Part shown: positions 1,920 to 17,852 of the stretch, piece after piece | Position numbering within the stretch: position 1 is the stretch's first letter | Layout: each line of letters opens with the position of its first letter | Source: Sinimarinibacterium arenosum | GTDB lineage: Bacteria; Pseudomonadota; Gammaproteobacteria; Nevskiales; Nevskiaceae | Assembly (NCBI RefSeq): GCF_005047655.1 | Contig: NZ_SUKF01000004.1 | Coordinates: forward strand, 248,001-312,000 | DNA: 64,000 nucleotides | Direction: 5' to 3' | The notes under the pieces: generated by a model | Told to the model about the DNA's origin: nothing | Database searches by the model: none | The model's input: only the letters and a program-made list of their open reading frames with translations | Program-made: the position numbers and the translations under genes

Positions 1920-2804
1920 TCAGGCGGTCGTCATCGCCACGCCGCGGCGATCCGGGTAGCGCTGCTCGACCCAGTCCGGATGCTTCCAGAGGATGCGCAG
2001 ATCGCGGCAGGTCCAGACATCACGCCACATCGCGAACCACTCGTCGAGGTTCAGCCGCAGCGGATTGAGCGTCGTCGGCTGACGATTGGTGATGCCGTAC
2101 TCGATGCGTCCGGCGTCGCGCTCGTCCACAAAGGAGCCGAACAGACGATCCCAGATGATCAGCACACCGCCGAAGTTGGTATCGATCTGCGCCGGGTTGC
2201 GGCCGTGATGCACGCGGTGATGCGACGGCGTGTTGAAGATCGCCTCGTACCAGGCCGGCATGCGCTTGACGACTTCGGTGTGGATGAAGAACTGATAGAA
2301 CAGATTCAGTTCGATCGCGACGACCACGGAAAGCTTGTCGAAGCCGATCAGCGCCAGCGGCAACCACCACAGAATTGCCAGACCGCTCAGATCGAACAGA
2401 AAGTTCTGCCGCAACGCCGTCGACAGATTGAAGCGCGTTGAACTGTGGTGCGTGACGTGGGAGCACCACGCGTAGCGCAGCTTGTGCATCGCCACATGCA
2501 GACCGTAGAAGATCAGGTCGGTCACCACGAACAGCAGCGCGATCATCGCCCACTTGTTTTCGGGTGTGTACTGCAGGCCGAAGGCACGGATGTGGTCGTA
2601 AAAATGCGTGACGAATACCGCGACCACGACACCGTCGAACATCTTGTACATGAACCCGGTGGCGATGTTGGCGAACACCTCACGGGTCTGATAGGCCTCA
2701 GGCCGATGCTTGCGGATCCAGTACCAGCGCTCAATCAGGATCAGGCCGAGAAACGCACTACCGGCGATCAGCACAAAGCCAAGCGCGTGAAGTATGTCTT
2801 CCAT
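1920..2804 (-). CDS. Sterol desaturase/fatty acid hydroxylase family protein
   Basis: This is a membrane di-iron hydroxylase of about 294 residues. The ATG at 2804 is chosen because GGAG lies nine bases upstream and the protein then begins directly with a membrane segment; 29 residues of extra reading frame upstream look non-coding. Histidine clusters of the superfamily are present in order: HVAMH, HVTHH and, after further membrane helices, HHRVHH. These bind the di-iron centre that inserts oxygen into, or desaturates, a lipid or sterol chain. The substrate cannot be told from sequence. It is divergent from an AraC-family gene, and a 21-bp direct repeat (2854-2891) lies in its promoter region, so AraC-type control is likely. 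Confidence 0.9.
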   Translation of the reverse strand: MEDILHALGFVLIAGSAFLGLILIERWYWIRKHRPEAYQTREVFANIATGFMYKMFDGVVVAVFVTHFYDHIRAFGLQYTPENKWAMIALLFVVTDLIFYGLHVAMHKLRYAWCSHVTHHSSTRFNLSTALRQNFLFDLSGLAILWWLPLALIGFDKLSVVVAIELNLFYQFFIHTEVVKRMPAWYEAIFNTPSHHRVHHGRNPAQIDTNFGGVLIIWDRLFGSFVDERDAGRIEYGITNRQPTTLNPLRLNLDEWFAMWRDVWTCRDLRILWKHPDWVEQRYPDRRGVAMTTA

Positions 2805-2853
2805 GCCGTACAACTCCGAGTCGTGGGAATGATGAAACTGTAGGGATTGCGAG

Positions 2854-2891
2854 CCTGAGTATATTGACAATACGTGCCATATAATTAGCAA
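2854..2891 (-). promoter_or_regulatory. Candidate AraC operator pair (weaker copy)
   Basis: On the minus strand TTGCTAATTATATGG starts at 2891 and TTGTCAATATACTCAGG starts at 2870, exactly 21 bp apart. The first hexamers resemble the TTGTCA half-site seen at four other loci, but the second halves diverge. The site lies 50-90 bp upstream of the hydroxylase start and points toward it, inside an AT-rich patch. Confidence 0.5.
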
Positions 2892-2935
2892 TCCATGCCA
2901 AGCGGATCTGCGATCCGTATTTCCGGAGCCGACCC

Positions 2936-3940
2936 ATGAACTCCAGCAGCGGCGGACCGATCCGCGTCACCGGCGCCTGGACCGGCCTGCTCAGCGACTG
3001 GCTCGATCGCGAACAGCTCGCCGCACCAGCGATTCGCGCACGGCTGGCGCGCTACGCGCCGGACGATCCGGTGCCCGTCCGCGACTGGCGCATGCTGCTC
3101 GAACAGGCCACGCAGCTGCGGCCTGCGCTGGAAGCACCGGGGCTGGTCATTGGCTCAGGCGTCATGCCGCACCATGTCGGCGTACTCGGCTACCTGGTAC
3201 TGGCGAGCGACACGCTCGCCGAAGCGATGGCGGCCTACCAGCGCTACGAGCGCCTGTTCTACGGCATCAACATCGCTGAAGTGCGGATCACGCACGACCA
3301 GGCACAACTGCGCTGGGTACCCACCGAGACCGGACCGATTGCCGACGAGACCGCGATCGCCGCACTGGTGACGTTCATCCAGCGCCAGAGTCTCAACAAC
3401 GCGCCACCGTCACGCGTCTGCTTCGTCCACACCGCCAGCGTCGCCCACGCCCGCGCCTGTGAAGACTTCTTCAGGTGCCCGGTCGAGTTCGGCAGCAGTC
3501 ACACCGTGGTGCAGTTTCCAACCGCGCTGCTGGCGACGCCGATGCGGCATCACGAACCGGGTCTGCGCGCGCTGCTTGACCGCCAGGCGCAGGCGCTACT
3601 GAAGGCACTGCCTGACTCGAACGCCTTCGATCAGGCGGTACAGCAGGTACTGTTGCGCCAGCTGCCGGACGGCAACGTCCACATCGACAAGGTCGCAAGT
3701 GCGCTGCACCAGTCAACACGCACACTGCAGCGACGCCTCGCCGACAGCGGCATGACCTGGCAGCAACTGCTGGATCGCACCCGCGAGCAGCTCGCACGCC
3801 AGTACCTGCACGACCGGGGTCTGTCGCTGGCGGAAATCGCGCTGCTGCTCGGCTACAGCGAGCAAAGCACCTTCATCCGCGCATTCCGCCGCTGGGTCGG
3901 CACCACGCCCCTGGCGTTCCGGCGCAAGGCCCCCGCCTGA
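2936..3940 (+). CDS. AraC-family transcriptional regulator (arabinose-binding-like N-domain)
   Basis: This 334-residue regulator starts at the ATG at 2936 with GGAG seven bases upstream. The first 200 residues match the 'arabinose-binding domain of AraC, N-term' type found in OruR-like regulators, with the HHVGVLGYLVLASDTLAEA segment. The C-terminal 90 residues carry two helix-turn-helix units (VASALHQSTRTLQRRL and LAEIALLLGYSEQSTFIRAF). It is divergent from the hydroxylase and may regulate it. Two further members of the same subfamily lie at 11815 and 16839. Confidence 0.9.
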   Translation: MNSSSGGPIRVTGAWTGLLSDWLDREQLAAPAIRARLARYAPDDPVPVRDWRMLLEQATQLRPALEAPGLVIGSGVMPHHVGVLGYLVLASDTLAEAMAAYQRYERLFYGINIAEVRITHDQAQLRWVPTETGPIADETAIAALVTFIQRQSLNNAPPSRVCFVHTASVAHARACEDFFRCPVEFGSSHTVVQFPTALLATPMRHHEPGLRALLDRQAQALLKALPDSNAFDQAVQQVLLRQLPDGNVHIDKVASALHQSTRTLQRRLADSGMTWQQLLDRTREQLARQYLHDRGLSLAEIALLLGYSEQSTFIRAFRRWVGTTPLAFRRKAPA

Positions 3941-4058
3941 CGCCTCCGCTGCGCCGCAACGGGCGATCCAATGCGCCGCAGCAGTCAGAGGGGGGTCAAA
4001 GCGGTTACGATCGCGCTCTCCCGGCGACACGCCGCCCTACTCCAATCGAGAACTTCCG

Positions 4059-4487
4059 ATGAGCCATCAGCACATCTGCATGACCCAATCGTTCACCGCG
4101 CCGGTTGAATCGGTCTTCAACGCGCTGGCCGATCATGATGGCCTCGGCAGCATCCTGGGCGTGCCGGTCAAGCGGCTGCAGTCCGGTGTTGATGACATCA
4201 ACGGCGTCGGCTCGGTCCGCCGCATCGGCCCCGGCCCCATCGCCACCCAGGAAACCGTGACCGCCTTCGAGCCCGGCAAGAAGATCGCTTATCGCATCAC
4301 CCGTTTTGGCGGCCCGATCGTCAATCACCATGGTCAGGTGAAGTTCGCCAGGACCGACGCCGGTTGCGATGTCACCTGGGACATTCACTTCGACACCAAG
4401 CCGGCGTTTCTCGGCCCGCTGCTGCACAAGGTGCTCAAAGGCGCAATCAGCCGCGGATTGAGCAAGCTTTCCCAGCGTCTGTCCTGA
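4059..4487 (+). CDS. SRPBCC-family (polyketide cyclase-like) protein
   Basis: This is a soluble 142-residue protein with the START/Bet v1-like (SRPBCC) pattern: an N-terminal strand and helix (FTAPVESVFNALADHDGL), central strands ending in GPGPIATQETVTAFEPGK, and a long C-terminal helix (LHKVLKGAISRGLSKL). Such proteins have a hydrophobic cavity and bind lipids, sterols or polyketides. No catalytic residues are assigned. The gene stands alone between the AraC gene and a hairpin. Its position among lipid-metabolism genes suggests a hydrophobic ligand; that is inference. Confidence 0.82.
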   Translation: MSHQHICMTQSFTAPVESVFNALADHDGLGSILGVPVKRLQSGVDDINGVGSVRRIGPGPIATQETVTAFEPGKKIAYRITRFGGPIVNHHGQVKFARTDAGCDVTWDIHFDTKPAFLGPLLHKVLKGAISRGLSKLSQRLS

Positions 4488-4592
4488 GCGGCGGCGCAAC
4501 GCGCTGCTGCTGCGTCCACGCCGGGATTGCGCGATTTCGATCCGGCACTCGATTGGCAAGCGGATTGTGACCGTCCATCCGGAAATGTGAAC

Positions 4593-4628
4593 CCTTCAGC
4601 CCCGCGGGTGCCACCGCGGGGCTGAAGG
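4593..4628. terminator. Perfect 15-bp hairpin without T-tract
   Basis: CCTTCAGCCCCGCGG (4593-4607) is the exact reverse complement of 4614-4628, with a 6-base loop. It lies downstream of the SRPBCC gene and 47 bases before the next start. No T-run follows on either strand, so it may be a transcript-end stabiliser or a 5'-leader structure rather than a classical intrinsic terminator. Confidence 0.55.
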
Positions 4629-4675
4629 ACATCCAGGATGGACTGTGGTCTGATCGGCTTGGAGGACGAATCGAA

Positions 4676-4900
4676 ATGATTTCCGGTGCAACTTCCACGG
4701 CAGTCTCCAGCATCTACTCCGGCCTCAAGCAGTTCGATGCGGCTGCACAGGCCGTCGCCAGCGGCGGCGTCAGCGACAACCGGGAGCTGACCGAAGCACT
4801 GGTCTCAGGCCAGCAGGCCCGTCAGCAGATCGAGGCTTCGGCCAAGGTGCTGAGCACGGCCGACGAGACGCTCGGCACGCTCATCGACCGCTTTGCCTGA
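4676..4900 (+). CDS. Orphan flagellar-rod-like small protein
   Basis: This is a 74-residue protein with GGAGG eleven bases before the ATG. Its N-terminal 25 residues (STAVSSIYSGLKQFDAAAQA) resemble the start of flagellar rod/hook proteins. Its C-terminus (QARQQIEASAKVLSTADETL, then GTLIDRFA) resembles the conserved C-terminal helix of FlgC/FlgG/FlgE, where the usual form is 'AxxANxKVIxTADEMLGTLI'. The whole middle of a rod protein is missing. No other flagellar gene is in the window. It could be a minimal rod-like coiled-coil protein or a standalone family; function unknown. Confidence 0.72.
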   Translation: MISGATSTAVSSIYSGLKQFDAAAQAVASGGVSDNRELTEALVSGQQARQQIEASAKVLSTADETLGTLIDRFA

Positions 4901-5110
4901 TCCGCAAGCGGATACCGCTTGCTTCCGCTCGAGCCGCTACGGCTCAAGGCCCATCATGGGCAGGAAGTGGCGCGCAACGGCACTCGCGCCATGACGCGTC
5001 ACCCAGCCAATACCCCTTGAATCATCATTCGCAGCGCTGCGTGCAGCGGAGCTCACGGAAACGTCCGCCACGCGCCTGGGCAGTATCGCGATGGGATCCA
5101 CTACGGTCAT

Positions 5111-5148
5111 CTGTCCACCGGTGACAAGCAAACGTCCGGAAATGACAA
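5111..5148 (-). promoter_or_regulatory. Candidate AraC operator: 21-bp direct repeat
   Basis: On the minus strand TTGTCATTTCCGGACGT starts at 5148 and TTGTCACCGGTGGACAG starts at 5127, a spacing of exactly 21 bp. The first copy is the closest to the consensus of the set. It lies 72-109 bases upstream of the alcohol dehydrogenase gene start. Confidence 0.68.
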
Positions 5149-5219
5149 GCCGCAGTCGCCCCGCACCCTGAGCATGTCGATCTGACGCTGGAGACATCCG
5201 GCCACTCCAAGGATCGAAC

Positions 5220-6413
5220 ATGAAAGCTGTTGTGTGCCAGAACACCGTACTGTCCGTCGTCGATCTGCCCGAACCCACCCCCGGCCCCGGCCAGGTTCTG
5301 GTCTCGGTCGAGCGCTGCGGCATCTGCGGATCCGACCTGCACATTCGCCATCACTGTGATCCGATGAAGGCGTTGCTCGACAAGGTCGGCTTCGGCCGCA
5401 TGATGCCCGCCAGTACGGACCCATTGGTGTTCGGCCATGAGCTGTGCTGTGAAGTGCTCGACTTCGGTCCGGGCTGCGACCGGAAGATTCCGAAAGGCAC
5501 GCGCGTGGTCGGTCAGCCGGTGCTGCGCGTGGGTGGTGACATCCACCTGTCCGGACTTTCGCCGATCGCTACCGGCGGCTACGCCGAGCGCATGCTGATG
5601 CAGGAGTCGGCACTGGTTCCGGTTCCGAACGGTCTGTCGCCGGACATGGCCGCATTGACCGAGCCAATGGCGGTTGCCTGGCATGCGGTGCGTCGCAGCG
5701 AAATTGCCAGGAAGGACGTCGCCATCGTCATCGGCTGCGGGCCCGTCGGGCTTGCAGTGATCTGTCTGCTCAAGGCTCAGGGCGTCGGCACCGTGGTCGC
5801 CAGCGATTTCTCGCAAGGCCGCCGTGCGCTCGCCCGTCGCTGCGGAGCGGATGTCGTGATCAACCCGTCGGAAGGCTCGCCCTACGCGCCACGTCCGGGT
5901 GAGGACTTCATGCGCGATCTGCCGGCGCTGCTGGAGCTGTCCGTCGGCACGCGCGAGAAACTCGGCAAACTACCCATCCCCTGGCACGTCACCTGGCGCC
6001 TTGCTGAAAAGCTTGGCGCCGCGGCGCCGAAACGGCCGGTGATCTTCGAGTGCGTCGGCGTGCCCGGCATCGTGCAGCAGATCATCGACGGCGCGCCGCT
6101 GATGTCGCGCATCATCGTCGCCGGCGTCTGCATGCAGATCGACCGCTACGAACCCGCACTGGCGATCCACAAGGAGATCGACCTGCGCTTCGTGTTCGGA
6201 CACTCACCGCTCGAATACCGCGACACGCTGCAGATGATCGCCGAAGGCAAGGTCAGCTGCGCTCCGATGATCACCGGCGTCGTCGGTCTTGGCGGCGTCA
6301 GCGGTGCCTTCGAGGCATTGAAGGACCCGGAGACTCACGCCAAGATTCTGATTGATCCCCGCATCGCCCTGAACAACTCTGCGATCACGCCCGCCGCGTT
6401 CGGCCGGGCCTGA
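5220..6413 (+). CDS. Zinc-type alcohol dehydrogenase (MDR superfamily)
   Basis: This is a 397-residue NAD(P)-dependent dehydrogenase of the medium-chain family. The catalytic zinc site is visible as CGICGSDLH (residues 33-41) and FGHELCCEV; the Rossmann fold has IGCGPVGLAVI with an acidic residue (ASD) at the end of the second strand. The usual four-cysteine structural-zinc lobe is not apparent. The region after the Rossmann core is long, so this is not a simple short ADH. It starts 8 bases before the next hydrolase gene, so the two form an operon. It probably oxidises an alcohol or reduces an aldehyde or ketone in lipid or terpenoid catabolism; the substrate is unknown. Confidence 0.87.
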   Translation: MKAVVCQNTVLSVVDLPEPTPGPGQVLVSVERCGICGSDLHIRHHCDPMKALLDKVGFGRMMPASTDPLVFGHELCCEVLDFGPGCDRKIPKGTRVVGQPVLRVGGDIHLSGLSPIATGGYAERMLMQESALVPVPNGLSPDMAALTEPMAVAWHAVRRSEIARKDVAIVIGCGPVGLAVICLLKAQGVGTVVASDFSQGRRALARRCGADVVINPSEGSPYAPRPGEDFMRDLPALLELSVGTREKLGKLPIPWHVTWRLAEKLGAAAPKRPVIFECVGVPGIVQQIIDGAPLMSRIIVAGVCMQIDRYEPALAIHKEIDLRFVFGHSPLEYRDTLQMIAEGKVSCAPMITGVVGLGGVSGAFEALKDPETHAKILIDPRIALNNSAITPAAFGRA

Positions 6414-6421
6414 GGAACACC

Positions 6422-7243
6422 ATGGACTTCGCCCGCAAAACCCTGCAGATCAACGGCTTCGCCATGAACGTCATCGACGTCGGTGAAGGTGAACCGGTGC
6501 TGCTGGTCCACGGCTTTCCCGATACACAGTCCGTCTGGCGCCATCAGATTCCTGCCCTGGTCGCGGCCGGCTATCGTGTGATCGCGCCGGACACGCGCGG
6601 CTGTGGAGACAGCAGCCTGATGCCGAAGGTGTCCGACTATCACATCAGCCACCTGATTGCCGATCTCGCCGCACTGCTCGACGCACTGAAGATCGACAAG
6701 GTCAAGCTCGTCGGTCACGACTGGGGGGCGGTCATCAGCTGGCAGTTCGTCATGGCCCACCCCGATCGCGTGGAACGTTATGTTGCGCTCTCGGTCGGCC
6801 ATCCCAGCGCCTATGGCGGCGGCGGCCTCGAACAGAAGCTCAAGGGCTACTACGTTGTGCTGTTCCAGCTGCGCGGCTTCGCCGAATGGCTGCTCAAGGT
6901 GGGCAACTGGTCCTGCTTTCGATGGTTCACCGGCTTTGCCGGCGAATTCCCGCACTGGCACAAGGCCCTGAGCCGCCCCGGCCGACTGACGGCCGGCATC
7001 AACTACTACCGCGCCAATCTCGGCCTGATCCTGCCGCGCAAATACCCGCGCGTCTGCGTCCCCGTCATCGGTATCTACTCTGATGGCGACCGCTTCCTGA
7101 CCGAAGGACAGATGACCTCCAGCGCGCAGTACTGCGATGCCGGGTTCCGATATCGGCGCATCGAAGGTGCGAATCACTGGATGCAGCTGGACGCGCCGGA
7201 AAAGGTTACGCCAGCGATTCTGGAGGCATTGCATTCCACTTGA
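6422..7243 (+). CDS. Alpha/beta hydrolase, epoxide-hydrolase-like
   Basis: This is a 273-residue soluble alpha/beta hydrolase. HGFPD (30-34) forms the oxyanion region. VGHDWGAV places an aspartate nucleophile at residue 100, as in epoxide hydrolases and haloalkane dehalogenases rather than serine esterases. The charge-relay histidine is in GANHWMQLD near the end, and the acid candidate is in GIYSDGDRFL. It is 8 bases downstream of the alcohol dehydrogenase with GAGG before the ATG, so it is co-transcribed. A reaction on an epoxide is likely; the physiological substrate cannot be told. Confidence 0.86.
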   Translation: MDFARKTLQINGFAMNVIDVGEGEPVLLVHGFPDTQSVWRHQIPALVAAGYRVIAPDTRGCGDSSLMPKVSDYHISHLIADLAALLDALKIDKVKLVGHDWGAVISWQFVMAHPDRVERYVALSVGHPSAYGGGGLEQKLKGYYVVLFQLRGFAEWLLKVGNWSCFRWFTGFAGEFPHWHKALSRPGRLTAGINYYRANLGLILPRKYPRVCVPVIGIYSDGDRFLTEGQMTSSAQYCDAGFRYRRIEGANHWMQLDAPEKVTPAILEALHST

Positions 7244-7372
7244 ACCCGTGGGTGGCCATGTGTCGCGCCCTGCGTCACCGGCAGTGATCCCGCCAACATG
7301 ACCTGCATCAAGGCGCGCCTGGCCGATCTCCATTCTGATAGTGGAATAAACCCGCGTTAGAGCAGGTGCGAG

Positions 7373-8785
7373 ATGGAGAGAGTCAAATCACTGGACGCGG
7401 CATGGCTGTATCTGGAATCGCCAGAGACGCCCATGCACGTGGGATGCCTGCAGATATTTGCGCTGCCGCGCGGTGCCGGACGCACCTACGTGAAGAAGCT
7501 GGTCGAAATCGCGCGAACGATCACGCAGCTGGAACCGCCGTTTTCTCTTAAGCGACACCACTCCGCGCTCGGCGCGGTGCTGCCCTCCTGGGAGGAAGAA
7601 ACGCAGCCGGACATGACCCACCATGTGCCGCATCACGCACTGCCGGAACCCGGTGATGCACGCGAGCTGGAAAACCTGGTCGCGCGCCTGCAGAGCGATG
7701 AACTCGATACTGCGCGGCCGCTGTGGGAATGCCACATCATCGAAGGCCTGGCCGACCATCGCTTTGCCATCTTCACCAAGATCCATCATTCGTTGCTGGA
7801 CGGCGTCGGCGGCATGCGCCTGCTCGAAACCATGCTGACAACGAGCCCGAAGGACCGCGGCCTGCCCGCGTTGTGGTCACGACATCCGGAGCATCACCGC
7901 TCCGCGACGCGTGATGACGGCGAGCACACGCCGGGCGCTGTTATCGAACATGTACTGCACTTTGCCGCGACCCAGCTGCATGCGATGCAGGGGCTGTATC
8001 GCACGGCCAAGGCCTTCGGCAAGGCGGCACTCGACCCGAAGTCATCACCGCTGGCGTCGCCGTACACGGCGCCGAAGTCGATGCTGAACGTACCGATATC
8101 GCAGCAGCATCGGCTGGCAACGCTGGATATTTCGCTGACCCGGGTGCGCCGCCTGGGCAAGCGCGCGGGCGTCACGGTCAACGATGTATTTCTGGCGATG
8201 TGTTCCGGCGCCCTGCGCCGCTACCTGATGGAACACGACGCACTGCCGACGCAACCGCTGGTGGCAGGCCTGCCGGTGTCCCTCAGACCCGCCGGCGACA
8301 CCACCGTCGGCACGCTGGTGACCTTCATCCTGTCGACGCTGGGCACCGATCTCGACGACCCGGTCGAGCGCCTGATGGCGATCCATCGCTCGACGCTTGC
8401 GGCCAAGCATCAGCTGCAGCAGCTCGATCGCGCAGCGCTGACCGAGTACACCCTGCTGCTGATGGCGCCTTTCATCGTCAAGCTGCTGTCCGGCATGGGC
8501 GCGACCGGCCATCCGATTTTCAATCTGGTGATCTCGAACGTTCCCGGCCCGAGCCGTCCGCTTTACTACAACGGCGCGCGCCTCACTGCCATGTATCCGA
8601 CATCGATCGTCACCCATGGACAGGCGCTGAACATCACCGTGCTGTCGTACGCACGGCGCCTCAATGTCGGCTTCACCGCGTGCGGCCATTCGGTGCCGCA
8701 CCCGGAACGGATTGCGCAATATGCCGTGGAGGCGCTGGAGGAGCTTGAATCGAAGCTGCAGCCACGTCGACGGCACGCAGCCTGA
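7373..8785 (+). CDS. Wax ester synthase/acyl-CoA:diacylglycerol acyltransferase
   Basis: This 470-residue protein belongs to the WS/DGAT family that makes wax esters or triacylglycerol from acyl-CoA and a fatty alcohol or diacylglycerol. The catalytic motif HHxxxDG is HHSLLDG at residues 138-144. The N-terminus SLDAAWLYLESPETPMHVG matches the family start, so the ATG at 7373 is right. The C-terminal half has the family-conserved NLVISNVPGPSRPLYYNGA segment. Length agrees with the family (450-480). It is separated by 129 bases from the hydrolase gene; storage-lipid synthesis fits the neighbouring lipid genes. Confidence 0.94.
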   Translation: MERVKSLDAAWLYLESPETPMHVGCLQIFALPRGAGRTYVKKLVEIARTITQLEPPFSLKRHHSALGAVLPSWEEETQPDMTHHVPHHALPEPGDARELENLVARLQSDELDTARPLWECHIIEGLADHRFAIFTKIHHSLLDGVGGMRLLETMLTTSPKDRGLPALWSRHPEHHRSATRDDGEHTPGAVIEHVLHFAATQLHAMQGLYRTAKAFGKAALDPKSSPLASPYTAPKSMLNVPISQQHRLATLDISLTRVRRLGKRAGVTVNDVFLAMCSGALRRYLMEHDALPTQPLVAGLPVSLRPAGDTTVGTLVTFILSTLGTDLDDPVERLMAIHRSTLAAKHQLQQLDRAALTEYTLLLMAPFIVKLLSGMGATGHPIFNLVISNVPGPSRPLYYNGARLTAMYPTSIVTHGQALNITVLSYARRLNVGFTACGHSVPHPERIAQYAVEALEELESKLQPRRRHAA

Positions 8786-8840
8786 TCCCGCGCGCAGGAC
8801 TGCCGCTCTGAAACAGTCCTGTGCTGCGAAACCTCGGCGT

Positions 8841-10574
8841 TTACATCGAGATCGATCCCTTGCGGAAATCGCTACCACCGAGCAAGGCATTGACCAGCAC
8901 CGGTTGACCGGCGCGCGCCAGTTCGCGAGCGGACCGCAGCACCGCGGCTGACTCGCCGTCATTGCGGATCACCAGGCCCTTTGCGCCCAGGCCTTCGGCT
9001 GCGGCGTGGTAGTCGCTGGGGCGCAGCGGACAACCGACATCATCCTTGAGCACCTCAACCTGCTCGCGAGCGATCTGCGACCAGCAGGCGTCGTTGCCCA
9101 CGACCGCAACCAGACCGATACCGTGGCGCACAAAGGTGTCGAACTCCATCAGGCTGTAGCCGAGCGCGCCGTCGCCGAACAGCGTCCACAGTTCGGTCTC
9201 CGGCCGGCACAGCTTGGCCGCCAGCGCGAAGCCCGCACCGACGCCCAGCGTGCCGAATACGCCAGGATCGAGCCAGCTCAGGGCGTCCCTCGGGCTGAGG
9301 ATGTAGGACGCGGTCGCCACAAAATCTCCGCCGTCGGCAACGATCATGCTGTCGTCGGCAAGCTCTCCATCAATCTGCTTGCACAGCGCCAGCGGATTCA
9401 CGCCGCTGTCCGACGGCACCGCCTGCGCGCTGATTTCAGATTCACGCTGCGTATCACGTTCGCGCAGCTCGCCGAACCACGGAGTGCGGTCCGGCACCGA
9501 CGCCGGCGCGGCTTGCGCGACGGCGCGCAGGAACGCTGAAGCATCGGTCACCGCGCCGACCTGCGGGCGGCGATTGAGGCGCAGATCGTGCCGGTTGCGA
9601 TTGACCGCGACCACCGGAGTGCGTGGACGGATGTGCGCGCCGTAATCGAGCCGGAAGTCGCAGGGCACGCCGGCAAGGATCACCAGATCGGCCGCACGCA
9701 ACGCGTCTCGGCGCTTGTGCCGCATCTGCAACGGATGATTCGCGCCGAGCAGGCCGCGCGCCATGCCTGACAGATACACCGGAATGCCGAGCTGTTCCAC
9801 CGCTGCGCGCAAGGCGCTGACGGCGCCGACATCCAGCATGGCCTGACTGCCGATCACCATCAGCGGCCGTTGCGCAGTGGCGATGCGCTGCGCCGCAGCA
9901 GCGACATCGGACGGCTGCGGACTCGGCGGCGTGATCGTTTCCGCCACCTCGGACGGCGCGTGCACCTGGGCAAACTGACGATTCAGGTGCAATCGAAGAT
10001 ACGCCGCAATGGCGTGTTCACCGATGCCGGCACCGGGGCGCGGGGTGGACTTGGCGACGTACCACTGGCGCACCAGCGCCTCGTCGTACAGCAGGTCCAC
10101 CGGGCATTCGAGAAACACCGGGCCGGGCGTGCCCTCCGCCGCAACGCGCAGCGCGCGACGCAGCAGCGGCTCCAGATCGCGCACCCGTTTGGCCTGTGCG
10201 GCCCACTTCACGCTGGAGCGGATCAACGACATCTGGTCGATGTCCTGCAGCGCGCCGCGCCCACGCAATACCGTGGCCGTCGCGCCGCCCAGCAGCACCA
10301 GCGGCGATTGCGCCAGGCGCGCGTTCTGCACCGCCGTCAGTGTGTTGGTGAGGCCCGGACCCGCGGTCACCGCGGCAACACCGGGAATCCCGGTCAGCCG
10401 AGCAACCGCGTCTGCCGCAAATACCGCGGTGGCTTCGTGCCGCGTGTCGACCACGCGGATCCCCTGCGCCTTGCAGCCCACCAGGATGGGCGAGATGTGT
10501 CCGCCGCAAAGCGTGAACAGAAAACGCACGCCCTGCGCTCGCAGGACGCGCCCGATGATTTCGCCCCCATTCAT
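8841..10574 (-). CDS. Thiamine-diphosphate enzyme, ILVBL/2-hydroxyacyl-CoA lyase type
   Basis: This 577-residue protein has the three-domain layout of acetolactate synthase relatives. The N-terminal domain carries the activating glutamate in [20 protein letters not shown] (Glu47) and the GPGLTN segment. The C-terminal thiamine diphosphate/Mg site is [15 protein letters not shown] followed by the asparagine in VVGNDACW. The sequence style ([14 protein letters not shown] at the start, [13 protein letters not shown] near the end) is closer to vertebrate ILVBL (also called HACL2) than to IlvB. No regulatory subunit gene is adjacent, which argues against valine biosynthesis. Cleavage of 2-hydroxyacyl-CoA to an aldehyde one carbon shorter plus formyl-CoA is the best guess; oxalyl-CoA-decarboxylase-like or acyloin chemistry is possible. 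Confidence 0.85.
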
Positions 10575-10726
10575 TGATTATTTCCTCTCGGTACGCTGCC
10601 GTAGCATGCGTAGCCCCCACCCGTCCGACCTTGATCCAGATCATCCCGTGCGGATACGGAGGTTTGAGAGGCGGAAATCCTCGGCGCACTGAAGCGATCA
10701 GATCGCCGTTGCCGCGAGCGAGAGCC

Positions 10727-11413
10727 CTAGGACAGCAAGGCCCCCAGCCATCCCAGCCCCAGGAATAGCGCCAGCAAGATACCGCCTGCGAGCCAGCGCC
10801 ACTCCGGGAAGGTCAGATCCGTCGATACCGGCACCAGAACGACCTGCTGTGCCATGAACTTGTACGGCATGTACGGCAGGTAATTGGGATGCGTCACCAG
10901 CTTGAAGAACGTGCGCCGGCTCGGGTACCGCATCATGATGATCCGGCTCCACTCGTCCAGTTCGCGACCGGCGGCATGAATGTCATGGCGGGATGTCTTG
11001 CCACCGATCATCAGCGTGTTTCGCCCCTGTGCCGAACCCGCCATCATTGGATAGGCTCCGAGGCTGAGCGCCAGGGGTACGACATTGTTTTCGTAGTGTG
11101 CATTAGCGTCCTGAGGCGCGCCCTGAAACTCCGGCGCCCCTGGAAAGCGCCGCAGTTCCTCGTGATAGCGCATCAGATTGAGCATGTAGATCGGCTTGCC
11201 GTCATCGGACGCGGCCCACTCACGCAGACGTGCCTGCATGTCGGCCTTCTCAGCCGCCGGCAGCGTGGTCGCTGCCACCTTGGCCAGATAGCCGTCGAGT
11301 TCTTCCGGCGTAATGGCCCCACGCACCAGCCCGGGCACCTGCCACAGCCACACCGCGGCGAAGGCCAGCAGACAGACAGCGCCGACTATGAGCATGTAAT
11401 GACTGGTGAGCAT
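10727..11413 (-). CDS. Membrane-anchored DUF1330-like protein
   Basis: The start is the ATG at 11413 with GGAG nine bases upstream; the reading frame continues further upstream but without gene-like sequence. The 228-residue product has an N-terminal membrane helix (YMLIVGAVCLLAFAAVWLW) and a C-terminal one (GGILLALFLGLGWLGALL). Between them, YMLNLMRYHEE and EWSRIIMMRYPSRRTFF with HPNYLPYMPYKFMA resemble the dimeric alpha-beta barrel of DUF1330. Bacterial DUF1330 proteins are normally soluble and about 95-100 residues, so the membrane anchoring is unusual. Function unknown. Confidence 0.7.
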   Translation of the reverse strand: MLTSHYMLIVGAVCLLAFAAVWLWQVPGLVRGAITPEELDGYLAKVAATTLPAAEKADMQARLREWAASDDGKPIYMLNLMRYHEELRRFPGAPEFQGAPQDANAHYENNVVPLALSLGAYPMMAGSAQGRNTLMIGGKTSRHDIHAAGRELDEWSRIIMMRYPSRRTFFKLVTHPNYLPYMPYKFMAQQVVLVPVSTDLTFPEWRWLAGGILLALFLGLGWLGALLS

Positions 11414-11535
11414 CAAGAACTCCAAATCGTCTAGTAAAAGCCGCCGCTCATCCGCACCACGAGCAACTGACGCCGCCAACGGTTCCGCAGAACCGAGACC
11501 CTGCATCCATCCTGTGGGCGACACGCCCTGCAGAC

Positions 11536-11573
11536 TTGTCATCAACGCACTGCAGGTTGTCATTTCCAGACAG
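11536..11573 (+). promoter_or_regulatory. Candidate AraC operator: 21-bp direct repeat
   Basis: Half-sites TTGTCATCAACGCACTG (11536) and TTGTCATTTCCAGACAG (11557) are 21 bp apart. The site is about 120-160 bases upstream of the DUF1330-like start and about 240 bases upstream of the AraC start. Confidence 0.65.
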
Positions 11574-11752
11574 TGCGCACGTCGCATCAGGCCAGGCGCG
11601 GATCGGGACAGAGCGCATTGCCGCTGCTTCCATCGGAGGCAGCGCAGAATCCACGGCGAGTCACCCCGGGGAAATTCCCCGCGGGCATCGTGCTATCGTT
11701 GGGACGCCTCCTGCCCATCAAGCCCGATCGGTAAAAAATCAATGTCAGGGGC

Positions 11753-11790
11753 TTGCCATTTCCCTACTTTGTGTTGTCATTTCTGGACAG
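11753..11790 (+). promoter_or_regulatory. Candidate AraC operator adjacent to AraC start
   Basis: Half-sites TTGCCATTTCCCTACTT (11753) and TTGTCATTTCTGGACAG (11774) are 21 bp apart and end 24 bases before the TTG start codon at 11815. A site this close to the start would lie over or downstream of the promoter, which fits autorepression. Confidence 0.68.
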
Positions 11791-11814
11791 GCAAAGGACC
11801 TGGAGGAGAGAACA

Positions 11815-12843
11815 TTGGCAACCCGAGGCGCCCCGCTGCTACCGGCACGTTACTACGTGCTGTTCTGCGATTGGCTGAAATCCGTGGGCGTCAATATCGA
11901 ACAGCTGCTGAAGCAGTCGCGCATCGATGCGAACGAGTTCTTCGGCCCCGACGCGATGCTGACGCTGGAACAGGTCGACGCGCTGCTGGATCAATCGTTC
12001 GAAGCCACCGGCCGGCCTGATCTGGGCTTCGACTGGGGGCGACAGATCAAGCTCAGCTCGCACGACATCCTGGGCTACGCCTTGCTCAGCAGCCCGACGC
12101 TGGATTACGCACTGCGATTGAGCTCACGCTTCTATCGCCTGATGACGCCGACCTTCCGCCTGAGCTACCGACGCAATGCCGAAGTCGCGGAAATGGAGTT
12201 CAGCCCGGTCATGTCGATGAAGCCGCAGACACTGCGTTTTCATATCGAAGGGATCTCGGTCTCGGTACATGACCAGGTGAGAATCCTGCTCGGCGGCACC
12301 ATGCCACCGTACGACTACTACGTCTCGATCGCGCAGCCGGCCTATCACCAACGCTATCGCGAGCTGAACCCGGCGCGCTGGCACTTCGAGGCGCAGCAGA
12401 CTCCCGGCATGCGTGTTGCGCTGAGCGCCAATCTGGTTGACCGGACGCTGGAAATGTCGGACCGGACGGCTTTGCAGATGGCGGAGTCGCGCTGCGAGGC
12501 CTTGCTGGAGCATGTCAGCCAGGGCTCAGGACTCGCCGACTGGGTGACGATGATGCTGCACGAAGCCCGCGACGGCATGCCCACGCTGGACGATCTCGCG
12601 CACATCCTGCACATCACCTCGCGCACGCTGGACCGCCGCCTGCGCAAGGAGGGTCAGCACTTTCTCGACATCGCAAAACAGGTCCGCCACGAAAAGGCGC
12701 GCAATCTGCTTGCCGGCGGAAAGATGTCGGTCACCCAGGTCGCGCTGCAATTGGGTTACCAGGATGTCGCCAACTTCACCCGGGCCTTCAAGCGCGACAG
12801 TGGCATGAGTCCAACTGAATTCATCAGCGCCGAACGCAAGTAG
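11815..12843 (+). CDS. AraC-family transcriptional regulator, TTG start
   Basis: The best start is the TTG at 11815, directly after GGAGGAGAGAACA; the open frame extends further upstream but through the operator sites. The product is 342 residues. It has the OruR-type N-terminal domain (LPARYYVLFCDWLKSVGVNI through about residue 200) and C-terminal paired helix-turn-helix units (LAHILHITSRTLDRRLRKEG and VTQVALQLGYQDVANFTRAF). It is flanked by the DUF1330-like gene and, convergently, the aldehyde dehydrogenase. A 21-bp operator pair overlaps its leader, so it may regulate itself. Confidence 0.88.
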   Translation: MATRGAPLLPARYYVLFCDWLKSVGVNIEQLLKQSRIDANEFFGPDAMLTLEQVDALLDQSFEATGRPDLGFDWGRQIKLSSHDILGYALLSSPTLDYALRLSSRFYRLMTPTFRLSYRRNAEVAEMEFSPVMSMKPQTLRFHIEGISVSVHDQVRILLGGTMPPYDYYVSIAQPAYHQRYRELNPARWHFEAQQTPGMRVALSANLVDRTLEMSDRTALQMAESRCEALLEHVSQGSGLADWVTMMLHEARDGMPTLDDLAHILHITSRTLDRRLRKEGQHFLDIAKQVRHEKARNLLAGGKMSVTQVALQLGYQDVANFTRAFKRDSGMSPTEFISAERK

Positions 12844-12884
12844 TCTGGCAGTCCGGAGGCTGCCGCCCTCCGCGTGCGTGATGC

Positions 12885-14321
12885 TCAGAGGCTGACGGCC
12901 CCCATCACGGCCTTGAGCTGGGTGAATTCCTCGATGCCAGCCGCGCCCCACTCGCGCCCGAGACCGGAACGCTTGTAGCCACCGAACGGCGCGTGCAGAT
13001 CGAGGCCCGCGCCATTGAGGTGAACCATGCCGGTGCGCAAGCGCCGCGCCACGGCACTGGCGCGCTCGATGCTTCCACCCCAGACGTAGCCGGACAGGCC
13101 GTACTCGCTGTCATTGGCCATGGCGACCGCTTCGTCTTCACTACGATACGGAATGATCGTCAGCACCGGCCCGAAAATCTCTTCGCGCGCGATCCGCGCC
13201 TGATTGTCTGCGGCGACGAAGACGGTCGGCCGCGCGTAATAACCCTGCGTCAGTCCGTCCGGACGGCCCAGCCCGCCGGCCACCAGGGTCGCACCCTCGT
13301 CGATGCCGGCAGCGATCAGGGCTTGCACACGCTGAAACTGGCGTGCGTTGGCGATCGGTCCGGTGGTGGTGCGCGCGTCGAGGGGATCGCCCACCACCAG
13401 TTGCTGCACGGCCTCGGCAGCAATCTGTTCAACCTCGGCCAGCATTGCCGCCGGCACCAGCATGCGCGACGGCGCGTTACAGCTCTGCCCGCTGTTAATC
13501 ATCATCTGCAGCACGCCTTGCGTCACCGCCTGCTTCAGCGGCGCGTCCTCCAGGATGATGTTGGCAGACTTTCCGCCCAGCTCCAGTGACACGCGCTTGA
13601 TCGAGTCAGCACCGTTTCTGGCGACTGCAGCGCCTGCGGCGGTCGAACCGGTGAGCGACACCATGTCGACCTTCGGATGCGTCGCCATGCTCGGCCCGAT
13701 CTCCGGCCCCATGCCCCAGACCAGGTTGAACACCCCGGCGGGAGCACCGGCTTCGTCGAGAATCTCCGCCAGCAGATGCGCCGACAGCGGCGCCAGATCC
13801 GAGGGTTTGAGCACCACGGTACATCCGGCCAGCAAGGCCGGCGCGAGCTTGCAGGCGATCTGGTTCATCGGCCAGTTCCACGGCGTGATCAGCGAGCACA
13901 CACCGACGGGTTCGCGCAGCAGCACCGTACTGCCCTGCGTGCGCTCCCACTCGAAGTGCTCGGCCAGCGCTGCTGCGATCTGAAAATGCCACAAGCCGAT
14001 CGGTGCCTGCAGCGTCCTGGAGAGCTGCTCGTAGGGCGCGCCCATCTCGGTCGTGATCGCCAGCGCCATCTCCTCCACGCGGCGCTCGTACACCGCAGCT
14101 ATACGCTGCAGCAGCGCCAATCGCTCGCTCAGCGGCGTCGCCGCATAGGCCGGAAACGCGCGGTACGCCGCATCGATGGCGCGCTCAAGATCGGCCGCAC
14201 CGCCCATGTGAACGCTCGCAATTGGCTGCTCCGTCGCCGGATTGATGACCGCGACAGCAGACGCAGCTGCGGTCGAGGCCTGCCACTGGCCGTCGATGTA
14301 ATGCCGATCGAAAGTACGCAT
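12885..14321 (-). CDS. NAD(P)-dependent aldehyde dehydrogenase
   Basis: The start is the ATG at 14321 (MRTFDRHYIDGQW), with GGAG upstream; the longer frame reading back into the upstream gene is not used. The 478-residue protein has all ALDH landmarks: the coenzyme-domain VSLTGSTAAGAAVARNG, the glutamate motif LELGGKSANIILEDA, and the catalytic cysteine in NSGQSCNAPSRM. The C-terminal EIFGPVLTIIPY and GYKRSGLGREWG match the superfamily. It follows the propeller gene by 52 bases and is probably co-transcribed with it. It oxidises an aldehyde to the acid; fatty aldehyde is a reasonable inference from context. Confidence 0.92.
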   Translation of the reverse strand: MRTFDRHYIDGQWQASTAAASAVAVINPATEQPIASVHMGGAADLERAIDAAYRAFPAYAATPLSERLALLQRIAAVYERRVEEMALAITTEMGAPYEQLSRTLQAPIGLWHFQIAAALAEHFEWERTQGSTVLLREPVGVCSLITPWNWPMNQIACKLAPALLAGCTVVLKPSDLAPLSAHLLAEILDEAGAPAGVFNLVWGMGPEIGPSMATHPKVDMVSLTGSTAAGAAVARNGADSIKRVSLELGGKSANIILEDAPLKQAVTQGVLQMMINSGQSCNAPSRMLVPAAMLAEVEQIAAEAVQQLVVGDPLDARTTTGPIANARQFQRVQALIAAGIDEGATLVAGGLGRPDGLTQGYYARPTVFVAADNQARIAREEIFGPVLTIIPYRSEDEAVAMANDSEYGLSGYVWGGSIERASAVARRLRTGMVHLNGAGLDLHAPFGGYKRSGLGREWGAAGIEEFTQLKAVMGAVSL

Positions 14322-14373
14322 ACCGCTGCTCCGTGCAGAGTTGGAATTCAGCAACGATCCGTCAAAGCCGTGC

Positions 14374-16173
14374 TCAGCTCGCGCCGAGGATCGCGGCGCG
14401 ATCGTCGGCACCGCCTTCGGGATCGACGCACAGGAACGACGGTACCCCATCCTCGATCGCGTACGAGGGCAGATTGGACTGACTCGAGCACGCCTGCCCG
14501 TCGGAGGTGAACTCCCAGTCGCGCAGCCAGGTGACGCGGGTCGGACTCGGATAGGTCACGAAGGTCTTGGTCGCCGGGATGAAGCGGAACCAGCGATCCG
14601 ACATGTTCGAGGTGATCCAGATGTCTCCGGTGATCGGGTGGACGTTGAGTGCGTACGGCACCTCGTACTCGTTCGGGGCCAGCAGCGGCAGCGGATAGCT
14701 TTCGAACTTCTGGGTCCTGGTGTCGTAGCTCATCAAGGCGCTGTCGTCGAATGCGGGAATCCACAGCACCCCGTTCTTGTCGAAGCGTGGACGGCGCGGT
14801 CCCTTCAACGGCGTGTCGATTTCGGTCACTTCCTGCGTGACCGGATCGATGCGTCCGATCTTGTTCAGATAGAGCTTGGCGTACCAGATCGATCCGTCGA
14901 CCGGATTGACGTCGATGCCATAGGGGAAGTTGAGGATCGAGTGACCGAGATTGGCGAACTTGTGCGGCGACAGCTTCAGCTGCAGATCATTGCCCGGGAA
15001 CCAGGCCGCGAGCTTCATCACCACCGGCAGCGCCATGTCGGTCAGCCAGCGCCAGAAGCCGTTATGCGGCAGGCTGATGACCGTGAAGGTTTCGGTCTTG
15101 GGATCGAAACGAACGACTTCATTCGACAGCACCACGGTGAACCAGACGATGTCGTTCTTGTCGACGCGAATCGTATGCGGATACAGGTGCCGGTGCCCCA
15201 GCTCATAGACCTTGAACTCGCGCGTCTTCGGGTCGAACGACGCCACCGACGATGACAGTGCGTTGGTGATCCAGAACCGACCATCGCTGGTCTGCGCCAG
15301 ACTGTGCGGACCGTGCTTGCCGGAGAACACGCCGATCGGCAGCGGAATGCCCGACAGCACACCCCCCGTGGGCAGGTCGATATCCGGTTCATGGAAGGTC
15401 TCGATCTTGTTGGTCTTGCGATCAAGGAACCACACCACGTCGTGGCCTTCGTCGGCACCGTACAGATTGTCGTCCTGCCCGACCGCCGCATCGTGAATGA
15501 ACGACAGTCCGTCGCCGACCAGCCATTCCTCAACCTTGGCGTTTTTCAGTTCGGGACTGACGTCGTAGCTCTGGATCGCCTTGACCGGATCAGGGGTGAA
15601 TCCGCGCGTCAGCGTTCCGGCGATACCGTTGGCATCCGCGTCTGTCAGCATCGCGAAATAGCCTTCCATGCGCCGGATGGTCGCGCGCCACGCCGTCTCT
15701 TCCCGCGGCACGCGCGTCAGCGAGTTGCCCATCTGGTGACAGTAGTTGCACTGGCTGACGAAGGCGGCGCGCAAGTCGGGGTTGTCCCATTGCAGCTTGG
15801 TCAGATGCGCTGACGCGGTCAGCGTGTCCGACAGCTTCTGCGGATCGCTGATTTTCTCGACGGTGAAGTCGACCTGCGCGGTCGTCTCACCCTGTACCTC
15901 GACGGTTTGCACCTCGTCCTCGAAGTACGGCACCCGCGCCCGCACTGCCAGCACACCGTCGTAGCCGGTGCGGATGGCATAGCTGCCATCTTCGGCAGTG
16001 TAGACCGTGGTCTTGCGCTGCTTGTCGGCGTTGAACACCGTCACCAGCGCACCGGACACCGGCGCGCCGGACGCCGTCACCACGTGGCCGGAAAACTGTG
16101 CGGCCGGCGCTGCGGGACTGCCGAGCGCAGCAGTCAGGGCAATGCCGGAAAACAACAGGGATCTGAGACGCAT
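14374..16173 (-). CDS. Secreted protein: carboxypeptidase-regulatory-like domain, CxxCH heme site, streptogramin-lyase-like propeller
   Basis: This 599-residue protein has a signal peptide ending in SPAAPAAQ. Residues about 25-110 look like a carboxypeptidase-regulatory (transthyretin-like) domain (SGHVVTASGAPVSGALVTVF). A single c-type heme motif follows, CNYCH, in FVSQCNYCHQMGNSLTR at about residue 140. From about residue 210 to the end the sequence has the Vgb/NHL beta-propeller pattern (GPHSLAQTSDGRFWITN, PYGIDVNPVDGSIWYAKL, PYALNVHPITGDIWITSN). A periplasmic redox or lactonase-like enzyme is possible; the true reaction is unknown. It leads an operon with the aldehyde dehydrogenase. Confidence 0.82.
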   Translation of the reverse strand: MRLRSLLFSGIALTAALGSPAAPAAQFSGHVVTASGAPVSGALVTVFNADKQRKTTVYTAEDGSYAIRTGYDGVLAVRARVPYFEDEVQTVEVQGETTAQVDFTVEKISDPQKLSDTLTASAHLTKLQWDNPDLRAAFVSQCNYCHQMGNSLTRVPREETAWRATIRRMEGYFAMLTDADANGIAGTLTRGFTPDPVKAIQSYDVSPELKNAKVEEWLVGDGLSFIHDAAVGQDDNLYGADEGHDVVWFLDRKTNKIETFHEPDIDLPTGGVLSGIPLPIGVFSGKHGPHSLAQTSDGRFWITNALSSSVASFDPKTREFKVYELGHRHLYPHTIRVDKNDIVWFTVVLSNEVVRFDPKTETFTVISLPHNGFWRWLTDMALPVVMKLAAWFPGNDLQLKLSPHKFANLGHSILNFPYGIDVNPVDGSIWYAKLYLNKIGRIDPVTQEVTEIDTPLKGPRRPRFDKNGVLWIPAFDDSALMSYDTRTQKFESYPLPLLAPNEYEVPYALNVHPITGDIWITSNMSDRWFRFIPATKTFVTYPSPTRVTWLRDWEFTSDGQACSSQSNLPSYAIEDGVPSFLCVDPEGGADDRAAILGAS

Positions 16174-16838
16174 GGCGAACTCCTGGAAGACTCAAATGTG
16201 AACAGCGGAGGTCTCGACCGCGAGATGCTCTGCGGTGATCCAGCCGGCGCTGCGGACAATGAAACGGACACTGTAATCTGCGGTTTCACGCGCCTTCGGC
16301 AACCACCGCGACGCCTCAAACACCTGCGGCAGCCGATCCCGGATTTCGAGCACCACGGCAGCGCCGGCAGCAGACGTTGCAGACGTTGCAGACGCGAGGG
16401 TTTGAGCTTTCGATTTCACGGCTGCGACAGTTCACGCGGTCGGCGCAGCTCGGCGACCAGCTCCTGGACGAAATCAGACGATGCGCCCCTGGGCACGGAG
16501 AAGATCTGCCGGCCGGCGACATGCGCACGCATCGACGGCGACTCCAGATGCAGGAACATTGCGTCCATCGGGGACAGCTTTCGGGTCACGGCGTGGAACC
16601 TTCACGGTGAGATTGACCCATGCATGGTCTGCTTGCGGCGCGCTGCAAACTTGTCATTTGCCGACTTCACCTTGTCATTGTCGGACACGACGACGGACGG
16701 CGCCCGCGAACTGAGCCCAAATCACGGCAGTCGGCGCCCAAACGTGCGGCGATTGCACGACAGAACCGCACCTCGACTGTTCTCAATCCAGCGCAGGGAC
16801 CTTAATGTGTCGCACCAGAACGAGGAGCGGGACCGCGG
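16174..16838. promoter_or_regulatory. 665-base divergent control region
   Basis: This long gap separates the propeller/ALDH operon (minus) from an AraC-family gene (plus). It holds a 21-bp operator pair at 16651-16688 and a short 9-bp repeat (CAGACGTTG, two and two-thirds copies) at 16371-16394. A 75-codon minus-strand frame at 16192-16419 starts with GTG, has no ribosome site and no recognisable family, so I do not call it. Otherwise nothing is seen. Confidence 0.5.
16651..16688 (+). promoter_or_regulatory. Candidate AraC operator: 21-bp direct repeat
   Basis: Half-sites TTGTCATTTGCCGACTT (16651) and TTGTCATTGTCGGACAC (16672) are exactly 21 bp apart. This is one of the clearest pairs because both halves keep TTGTCATT and the GAC core. 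It lies about 150 bases upstream of the AraC gene at 16839. Confidence 0.7.
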
Positions 16839-17852
16839 GTGAGCGAGCACCGGATTCCCATCATTTACAGCCGCATCATTGCCTCGGCCGTCGGCAGGAA
16901 GGCGGCCGAGTTGCGTCCTGCGCTTCCCGGGGGGCTTTCTTCGGGCGCGGATGGCTATATGTCCGGCGCGCAGTACGAGGCACTGCTGCGGGCTGCATGC
17001 GCGGTCTCCGCAGACCCGCTGATTGCCTTGAAGGCCGGCGCCAATATTCCGTTCAGCGTGCACGGGCCGCTGGGCATCGCCGCCATGTCGAGCGCGACGC
17101 TGGGTGATGCCCTGTCGGTGATCGGTCGTTACGCCGCCTTGCGCAGTCCGTTCTGCGCGATGCAGGCCGTGGAAGACAGCGATACCGTGATTTTCTTGTT
17201 TCAGATGGATACCAGCCTGCACGATCAGACCGATGCTGCGCTGGATTTCATCCTGTCGACCATCGGCTGTTCGATCTCGAGCCTGATCGCCGAGCCGCTG
17301 GCGACATTCCGTCTTGAGCTCAGGCGCAGAAAGCCGGCGCAGGCCCGCGAGTACACCCGGATTCTGGGCTGCGATGTGGTGTTCGGCGCAGCACGGAACG
17401 CCTTCGTGATCAGCAAGGACAGCCTGGCGACACCGCTGCTGGGCGCGAATCCGGAAGAGTTCGACAAAGCCCTCGAACGCCTGCGCAGCATGCACCTTCC
17501 ACAGGGACGCCTGCCGCTGCTGCGCGAACGAGTGATCAATGTTTTCGCGAACCGCAGCGGACATCTGTGTGCTCTGCCCGAGTGCGCACGCTCGCTCGGT
17601 ATGTCGACACGAACGCTCCAGCGCAAGTTGCGCGCCGAGGGCCTGTCATTCGAAACGCTGCGCGACACCTGGCTGAGCGAGCAGGCGCTGGACTTGCTGC
17701 TGCGCGAACACCTGTCGGTGGAAGTCACCGCAACGCTGCTTGGTTACAGCGAGATCGCCAATTTCCGTCGCTCGTTCCGACGCTGGCATGGCGTGGCCCC
17801 CGCGGCCTACCGCGCACGCCAGGCCAAGACACGCGCCCGCACTCGCCGGTAG
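16839..17852 (+). CDS. AraC-family transcriptional regulator, GTG start
   Basis: The GTG at 16839 follows GAGGAGCGG; the product is 337 residues. It has the same architecture as the regulators at 2936 and 11815: an OruR-type N-terminal domain (VHGPLGIAAMSSATLGDALS) and C-terminal DNA-binding helices (CARSLGMSTRTLQRKLRAEG and VTATLLGYSEIANFRRSFRR). The tail is arginine-rich. It is followed 116 bases later by the Baeyer-Villiger monooxygenase, whose leader carries a distinct 21-bp direct repeat; this regulator is the natural candidate for that site. Confidence 0.9.
   Translation: MSEHRIPIIYSRIIASAVGRKAAELRPALPGGLSSGADGYMSGAQYEALLRAACAVSADPLIALKAGANIPFSVHGPLGIAAMSSATLGDALSVIGRYAALRSPFCAMQAVEDSDTVIFLFQMDTSLHDQTDAALDFILSTIGCSISSLIAEPLATFRLELRRRKPAQAREYTRILGCDVVFGAARNAFVISKDSLATPLLGANPEEFDKALERLRSMHLPQGRLPLLRERVINVFANRSGHLCALPECARSLGMSTRTLQRKLRAEGLSFETLRDTWLSEQALDLLLREHLSVEVTATLLGYSEIANFRRSFRRWHGVAPAAYRARQAKTRARTRR

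Follow-up and report, generated by a model that had tools for sequence, protein, structure and literature searches.

We analysed a 64,000-nucleotide window of the Sinimarinibacterium arenosum genome (contig NZ_SUKF01000004.1, positions 248,001 to 312,000; host genome 4.54 Mb in 24 contigs), in which genes of lipid metabolism lie among three AraC-type regulators (AraC1, AraC2 and AraC3) and a direct repeat with a period of 21 bp recurs at four sites, named B, C, D and E, which we predict to be operators of AraC2. In window coordinates, the four sites, AraC2 and AraC3 are as follows.

5111-5148, minus strand: operator B, a pair of half-sites at period 21 ahead of the alcohol dehydrogenase (ADH) gene, in inverted orientation to it
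11536-11573, plus strand: operator C, ahead of the DUF1330-like gene, likewise in inverted orientation to its gene
11753-11790, plus strand: operator D, 24 bp before the AraC2 start, its divergent side lacking a -10; predicted autoregulatory copy
16651-16688, plus strand: operator E, facing a WS/DGAT remnant and a propeller gene (both minus strand) and lying 150 bp before AraC3 (plus strand)
11815-12843, plus strand: AraC2, TTG start after GGAGGAG, PF12625 and HTH_18 domains; predicted regulator of B to E
16839-17852, plus strand: AraC3, PF12625 and HTH_18 domains; probably outside the AraC2 regulon

The motif C-Y-TGTCATTTnnnGACA is present twice in each operator, with half-site starts 21 bp apart: TTGTCATTTCCGGAC and TTGTCACCGGTGGACAG in B (minus strand), TTGTCATCAACGCAC and TTGTCATTTCCAGACAG in C, TTGCCATTTCCCTAC and TTGTCATTTCTGGACAG in D, and TTGTCATTTGCCGAC and TTGTCATTGTCGGACAC in E. 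The half-site frame is TGTC-N7-GACA, the TGTC and GACA being inverted copies inside each half-site. An initial annotation of this DNA had claimed five sites at 21 bp, of which B, C, D and E stand with their coordinates exact, and the fifth (2854-2891, minus strand) falls away, as described below. Half-site pairs with at least 27 of 34 consensus matches number four at period 21 in the window and none at the other periods from 8 to 44, and a matrix built from 17 sites, B, C, D and E among them, gave scores of 38-46 for the four compared with 13.3 for the best window pair at other periods from 12 to 39. Across the genome, B, C, D and E alone matched the 21-spaced pattern when up to three mismatches were allowed (reversed control 0), and the identical pattern re-spaced to 22 bp had no match in the whole genome. 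TTGTCA pairs with a gap of 0-30 occur four times in the genome, three of them being B, C and E at period 21 and the fourth having a period of 27 (reversed control 3), while a relaxed pattern run across 11 genomes of the genus again found only B to E in the host genome. Pairs are thus not equally frequent at 20 or 22 bp; period 21 is specific in both the window and the genome. The motif is short, and an unrelated dispersed repeat in a family genome, G033, starts with TTGTCAT, so that chance or such a repeat might be thought to explain the sites, but the controls are near zero, the -10 described below stands at a fixed distance and conservation spans three classes; this explanation retains next to no probability and, as far as computation goes, is refuted by the controls.

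The site is also kept in other genomes. A pattern scan of 58 genomes of the family returned 17 sites in 13 genomes (reversed control 0), and each of the 13 sites from the other family genomes shares its 3-kb locus with an AraC gene that matches AraC2 best among the window proteins, the gene starting directly downstream of the site in 12 of the 13. In another pattern scan, the matches from G033 were mostly the unrelated dispersed repeat, which begins TTGTCATNGCGAG and occurs at many places in G033:C1. We then take AraC2 relatives more broadly, in 79 loci from a scan of named genomes (best 80 of 334 retained): the operator lies upstream of the AraC gene in 39 of the 79, from Gamma-, Beta- and Alphaproteobacteria, and in one and the same orientation in every one of the 39. 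The genera concerned include Solimonas, Nevskia, Hydrocarboniphaga, Fontimonas and Rugamonas, as well as Pseudoduganella, Undibacterium, Ralstonia, Ideonella and Zavarzinia. For the 67 loci with no site of their own in the matrix (one of them, L049, is from a genome that gave another site to it), 33 sites in 29 loci were found at period 21 and four in all at 34 other periods (10-44), and 50 column-permuted matrices, with the threshold raised to 20, found none. When no matrix is used, 30 of the 39 operator-bearing genes have 21 as the lag of the strongest 16-base direct repeat in their upstream 200 bp, ties counted, and the runner-up lag is found in 3. Operator presence clusters on the protein tree, with six changes compared with a shuffled mean of 26.5, near-copies helping such clustering. 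Searched motif-first, 368 other genomes of the class yielded four matches (control 0), each adjoining an AraC-type gene, three directly upstream of it and one (L162) at its 3' end. The reading of the repeat as an AraC-type operator is thereby supported, the sites being far from random, specific in their period and conserved in related genomes.

The inverted TGTC and GACA could also make each half-site a palindrome for a symmetric dimer of another family (e.g. TetR), the AraC neighbour being incidental. The ATTT beside TGTC is one-sided, however, with at least 70 of the 78 half-sites agreeing at every one of its three T positions and 69 at its A, and the constant polarity in 39 of 39 loci, together with the AraC genes that adjoin the motif-first matches, makes a symmetric dimer very improbable. 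In one AraC clade (L078, L082, L083 and L085) the two halves have jointly changed their first letters, TTGTCA/CTGTCA becoming CGGTCA or CCGTCA, which suggests that half-sites and regulator co-evolved.

HTH_18 and PF12625 were matched above cut-off by AraC1, AraC2 and AraC3 alike, giving each an AraC-type DNA-binding domain and an N-terminal sensor domain. The initial annotation had placed the three in one subfamily sharing the sites; they are indeed of one Pfam type, but the identity to AraC2 is no more than 23% for either AraC1 or AraC3, and joint use of the sites is not supported. On the tree, the sister of AraC2 is a Solimonas soli protein (67-68% identical, support 100/100), and AraC2 groups with the operator-bearing L049-L052 at weaker support (91/55). 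The sole close ortholog of AraC3 (L211, 69% identical; n = 1), beside which the neighbouring monooxygenase is kept (85%), has no site upstream, an AraC2-type operator is conserved upstream of neither AraC1 ortholog (L181, L182), and none of the 15 PF12625 paralogs that the genome encodes beyond the window (of 18 in all) has such an operator, their best score being 8.8. Because the motif tracks the AraC2 clade, the AraC3 ortholog is without a site and AraC1 has an operator of its own, the motif most likely belongs to one regulator, AraC2; AraC3 as the owner of E is weakened by its single close ortholog. Use of B to E by all three regulators would suit their shared Pfam type and the 150 bp between E and AraC3, as would a near-identical operator, GGTCATTTnnnGACA at period 21, that adjoins PF12625 AraCs of the genus 28-31% identical to AraC3; given the 23% identities, the bare AraC3 ortholog and the other half-sites of the AraC1 operator, we regard it as unlikely. 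This sister operator stands beside PF12625 AraCs at L145, L146, L154, L156 and L160 (G039, G040, G042), and in G040 and G042 two copies in opposite orientations flank one AraC gene. Among the relaxed-pattern matches of the genus (L152 and L158 being outside the examined set), L136 and L160 have the site on the far side of the AraC gene, and L144, with three mismatches and a locus without an AraC-like gene, looks like a chance match.

Relative to the target gene the operator has inverted orientation, and an xAxxAT hexamer comes after it at constant spacing; in the window this gives three predicted -10 elements.

5170-5175, plus strand: predicted -10 GAGCAT of the ADH promoter, +22 to +27 from B
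11509-11514, minus strand: predicted -10 CAGGAT of the DUF1330-like gene, +22 to +27 from C
16624-16629, minus strand: predicted -10 GACCAT, +22 to +27 from E

Across 39 non-redundant target-side sequences (B, C and E included; 3 of 42 rows removed as near duplicates), columns +23, +26 and +27 hold 0.91, 0.91 and 1.13 bit compared with a 99% null of 0.32 from 500 shuffles. The hexamer at +22 to +27 fits B, C and E and not D, at a window background rate of 0.009 (3 of 40 rows were likewise removed in this analysis of the fit of B to E and in that of the araC side). The promoter-proximal half-site would accordingly be placed at the -35 of the target, as in XylS at Pm.

We propose that an AraC2 dimer reads two head-to-tail half-sites, TGTC-ATTT-nnn-GACA, 21 bp apart, whose four recognition boxes would all face the same side of the DNA. 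The inverted operator would at B, C and E end at the target's -35, with the -10-like xAxxAT 22-27 bp further, and AraC2, once it has bound its ligand, would bring in RNA polymerase there (class II activation). Since D has no divergent -10 and stands immediately before AraC2, it is predicted to mediate AraC2 autoregulation. The targets would be the ADH, alpha/beta hydrolase and WS/DGAT genes via B, the DUF1330-like gene via C, and the WS/DGAT remnant, propeller and aldehyde dehydrogenase (ALDH) genes via E. That B to E are AraC2 operators acting in this way, by class II activation of the B, C and E units and self-regulation through D, we consider quite probable. AraC2 might instead own the sites and mainly repress its targets, for which the 24 bp between D and the AraC2 start would be fitting, as would the distance of 9-84 bp that in 37 of 39 relatives lies between the end of the operator and the matched stretch of the AraC gene after it, an arrangement that suits autorepression. 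Towards the target, however, the operator reaches no further than the -35, and the -10, at its constant distance, remains uncovered; the activator XylS is described with this geometry, and predominant repression is in our judgement improbable. Towards araC, loci of the alkB type often have TTGACA in the upstream half, and a T stands at position +2 past the operator in 22 of 37; the operator may thus contain the araC promoter (TTGACA-17-GACAnT), which would point to autorepression.

The genes facing operators B, C and E in the window are listed below.

5220-6413, plus strand: zinc-type ADH, predicted target of B
6422-7243, plus strand: alpha/beta hydrolase, adjoining ADH, and beside ADH also in L050, L051 and L052
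7373-8785, plus strand: WS/DGAT acyltransferase, after the hydrolase in the same direction; putative member of the same operon
10727-11413, minus strand: DUF1330-like gene, ATG at 11413 in an open reading frame that opens at 11587; predicted target of C
16416-16589, minus strand: N-terminal WS/DGAT remnant of 57 codons, 61 bp from E, between E and the propeller gene
14374-16173, minus strand: propeller protein (Vgb-lyase-like, CarboxypepD_reg), a homolog of which directly faces the AraC2 relative across the operator in L051
12885-14450, minus strand: ALDH, downstream of the propeller gene; putative member of its operon

The DUF1330-like gene has itself no Pfam family, its label coming from a sub-threshold DUF1330 match (E 0.049) of the relative in L052, and the 57-codon WS/DGAT fragment is apparently the leftover of a longer gene. 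In three loci the operator lies between the AraC2 relative and a single row of genes, namely ADH, propeller and hydrolase in L050, propeller, ADH and hydrolase in L051, and DUF1330-like, hydrolase and ADH in L052; these are the gene types that stand beside B, C and E in the window, there as separate units. The commonest facing gene is an AlkB homolog (21 of 39 operator-bearing loci), the reference homolog having FA_desaturase and rubredoxin domains, and other facing genes are a ferredoxin-P450 pair (L076), a fatty acid desaturase (L072), an M24 peptidase (L049) and a DUF1329 protein (L090). These enzymes and the alkB-linked relatives suggest that the ligand could be an aliphatic lipid, alcohol or alkane, and the 'lipid-responsive' label given to the system by the initial annotation is plausible on the same analogy.

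Several observations count against this reading of B to E as AraC2 operators. B is weak in its downstream half and C in its upstream half, and E lies before AraC3 as well. Scans with the sigma-70 consensus gave no promoter at B, C or D, which would mean a poor -35, as is expected of an activated promoter. No such operator was found at 40 of the 79 AraC2 relatives, among them two Rugamonas paralogs (~42% identity; L075, L088) and L074, which is inside an operator clade, and one of the two sites in Solimonas soli is ~0.5 kb past the 3' end of the AraC2 ortholog. Three loci of host-genome AlkB homologs (L127-L129) were scanned and had no period-21 pair, which rules these homologs out as further targets and makes the alkane link in this strain an indirect one. 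Further afield, Acinetobacter relatives (~28% identity) have no such operator upstream, and two of them have a weak pair (score 18-19) past the AraC gene.

The initial annotation knew the motif in no named regulon. In the literature searched, with subscription papers mostly beyond the search, we found no report of the motif or of a matching operator for an alkane-related AraC regulator, but the architecture itself is well known. The XylS repeats at Pm are 6 bp apart, a period of 21. Upstream of that promoter lie two 15-bp direct repeats, of which the proximal shares two bases with the -35 box, as given in excerpts of the sources (PMC4225500, PMC5481539). By inspection of the boxes in these excerpts, XylS differs from AraC2 in using TGCA-N6-GGNTA and not TGTC-N7-GACA, and its ligands are aromatic and its targets different. 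In Pseudomonas aeruginosa, the AraC-family regulator SphR has sphingosine as ligand and few genomic sites, and its operator consists of direct repeats of the 15-bp half-site TGNCCSNNRNNSNCC with 6-8 bp between them, a period of 21-23, according to the accessible part of the report (PMC3900636). SphR thus resembles AraC2 in family, direct repeats and compatible spacing, a likeness drawn from its description, but by inspection its half-site has C and not A at position 5 and ends in CC and not CA (TGTCATTTnnnGACA in AraC2), and its targets differ. The architecture is therefore that of known AraC/XylS operators, and the half-site sequence fits neither XylS nor SphR.

Among full-length named families, the nearest to AraC2 is CypR, its best NCBIfam match at 143 bits; the cut-off of 500 bits for this equivalog (NF053784) was reached by none of the three regulators (AraC2 143, AraC3 147, AraC1 107). 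CypR, AlkR and APR1 are AraC-type regulators of alkane hydroxylases, and AraC2 relatives with the operator likewise face AlkB homologs or a ferredoxin-P450 pair. The VirS-mymA locus may be similar in gene content, with monooxygenase, ADH and WS/DGAT-like genes. The full-length VirS structure 8rcx is related to the AraC2 profile (E 7.9e-22), although VirS is from a different phylum and the likeness is a profile match to the VirS chain only. In Mycobacterium tuberculosis, VirS (mymA operon) is an AraC regulator tied to fatty acid modification and raised on lipid media, as stated in the available portion of PMC9044949. AlkR of strain ADP1 is said, in the section of a review at hand, to use an inverted repeat, unlike the direct repeat of AraC2 (PMC8784404).

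The fifth site proposed initially (2854-2891, minus strand) is mis-registered: the matrix score was -31 at that register and -4.0 for the best pair in the 500 bp around the AraC1 start, ruling it out as a member of the motif. It is replaced by a different element, A', between AraC1 and the hydroxylase gene.

2864-2900, plus strand: operator A', TTGACAATACGTGCCA-N5-TTAGCAATCCATGCCA, period 21, 35 bp before AraC1; outside the AraC2 set
2837-2842, minus strand: predicted -10 TACAGT of the hydroxylase gene, +22 to +27 from A'
2936-3940, plus strand: AraC1, PF12625 and HTH_18 domains, divergent from the hydroxylase gene; predicted owner of A'
1920-2804, minus strand: fatty acid hydroxylase gene, divergent from AraC1

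The AraC1 ortholog in L182, also divergent from a hydroxylase, has TTGACGATCCATGCCT-N5-TTGACGATTGATGCCA, and that in L181 has a degenerate version recognised by eye, lag 21 not being its strongest repeat. On the hydroxylase side, positions +22 to +27 read TACAGT in the window, GACAAT in L182 and TACAGT in L181. A' would thus be a separate predicted AraC1-hydroxylase operator with a geometry equal to that of the AraC2 set, and the hydroxylase gene, first assigned to one shared regulon with the others, is better removed from it. Lag 21 is the strongest or joint strongest direct repeat in 22 of 64 non-redundant upstream regions of PF12625 paralogs, the runner-up lag being so in 12, a sample that includes loci found through AraC1 and AraC3, and the 21-bp period may be general for regulators of the PF12625 type.

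Taken together, PF12625 AraCs would share an operator grammar (two half-sites TGnC-N7-GnCA at period 21, the target -10 at +22 to +27) with clade-specific letters and fixed geometry, and the gene row that relatives hold in one piece facing AraC2 would in the host have been split into units each carrying an operator copy; we give this joint reading about an even chance. If it is true, the regulons of alkane- and lipid-sensing AraCs (alkB, P450, hydroxylase and propeller/ADH clusters) would be readable from sequence across Proteobacteria. In the part of a 2013 review available to us, the role of several AraC-family genes beside CYP153 genes in Alcanivorax is described as not investigated (PMC3664771), and a passage of a later review reports that cypR of A. 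borkumensis has since been tested by gene inactivation (PMC8784404). With an operator and a -10 geometry amenable to scanning, targets would become assignable for many regulators of this sort in the Gamma-, Beta- and Alphaproteobacteria, and promoters for hydrocarbon sensors would be suggested. For the AraC2 operator the comparative support is strong, and the promoter geometry appears usable for prediction; locally, this gives poorly known genes (propeller, DUF1330-like) a concrete predicted regulon, set apart from the AraC1-hydroxylase system.

Two minor observations concern neighbouring genes. The second Solimonas soli operator (L048:5601-5637), past the AraC2 ortholog, faces a cupin-domain (ChrR-like) gene. 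In the window, a DUF1302 protein is encoded at 21426-23978 (plus strand), and DUF1302 relatives are found near the operator-bearing L056, L058, L063, L073 and L090.

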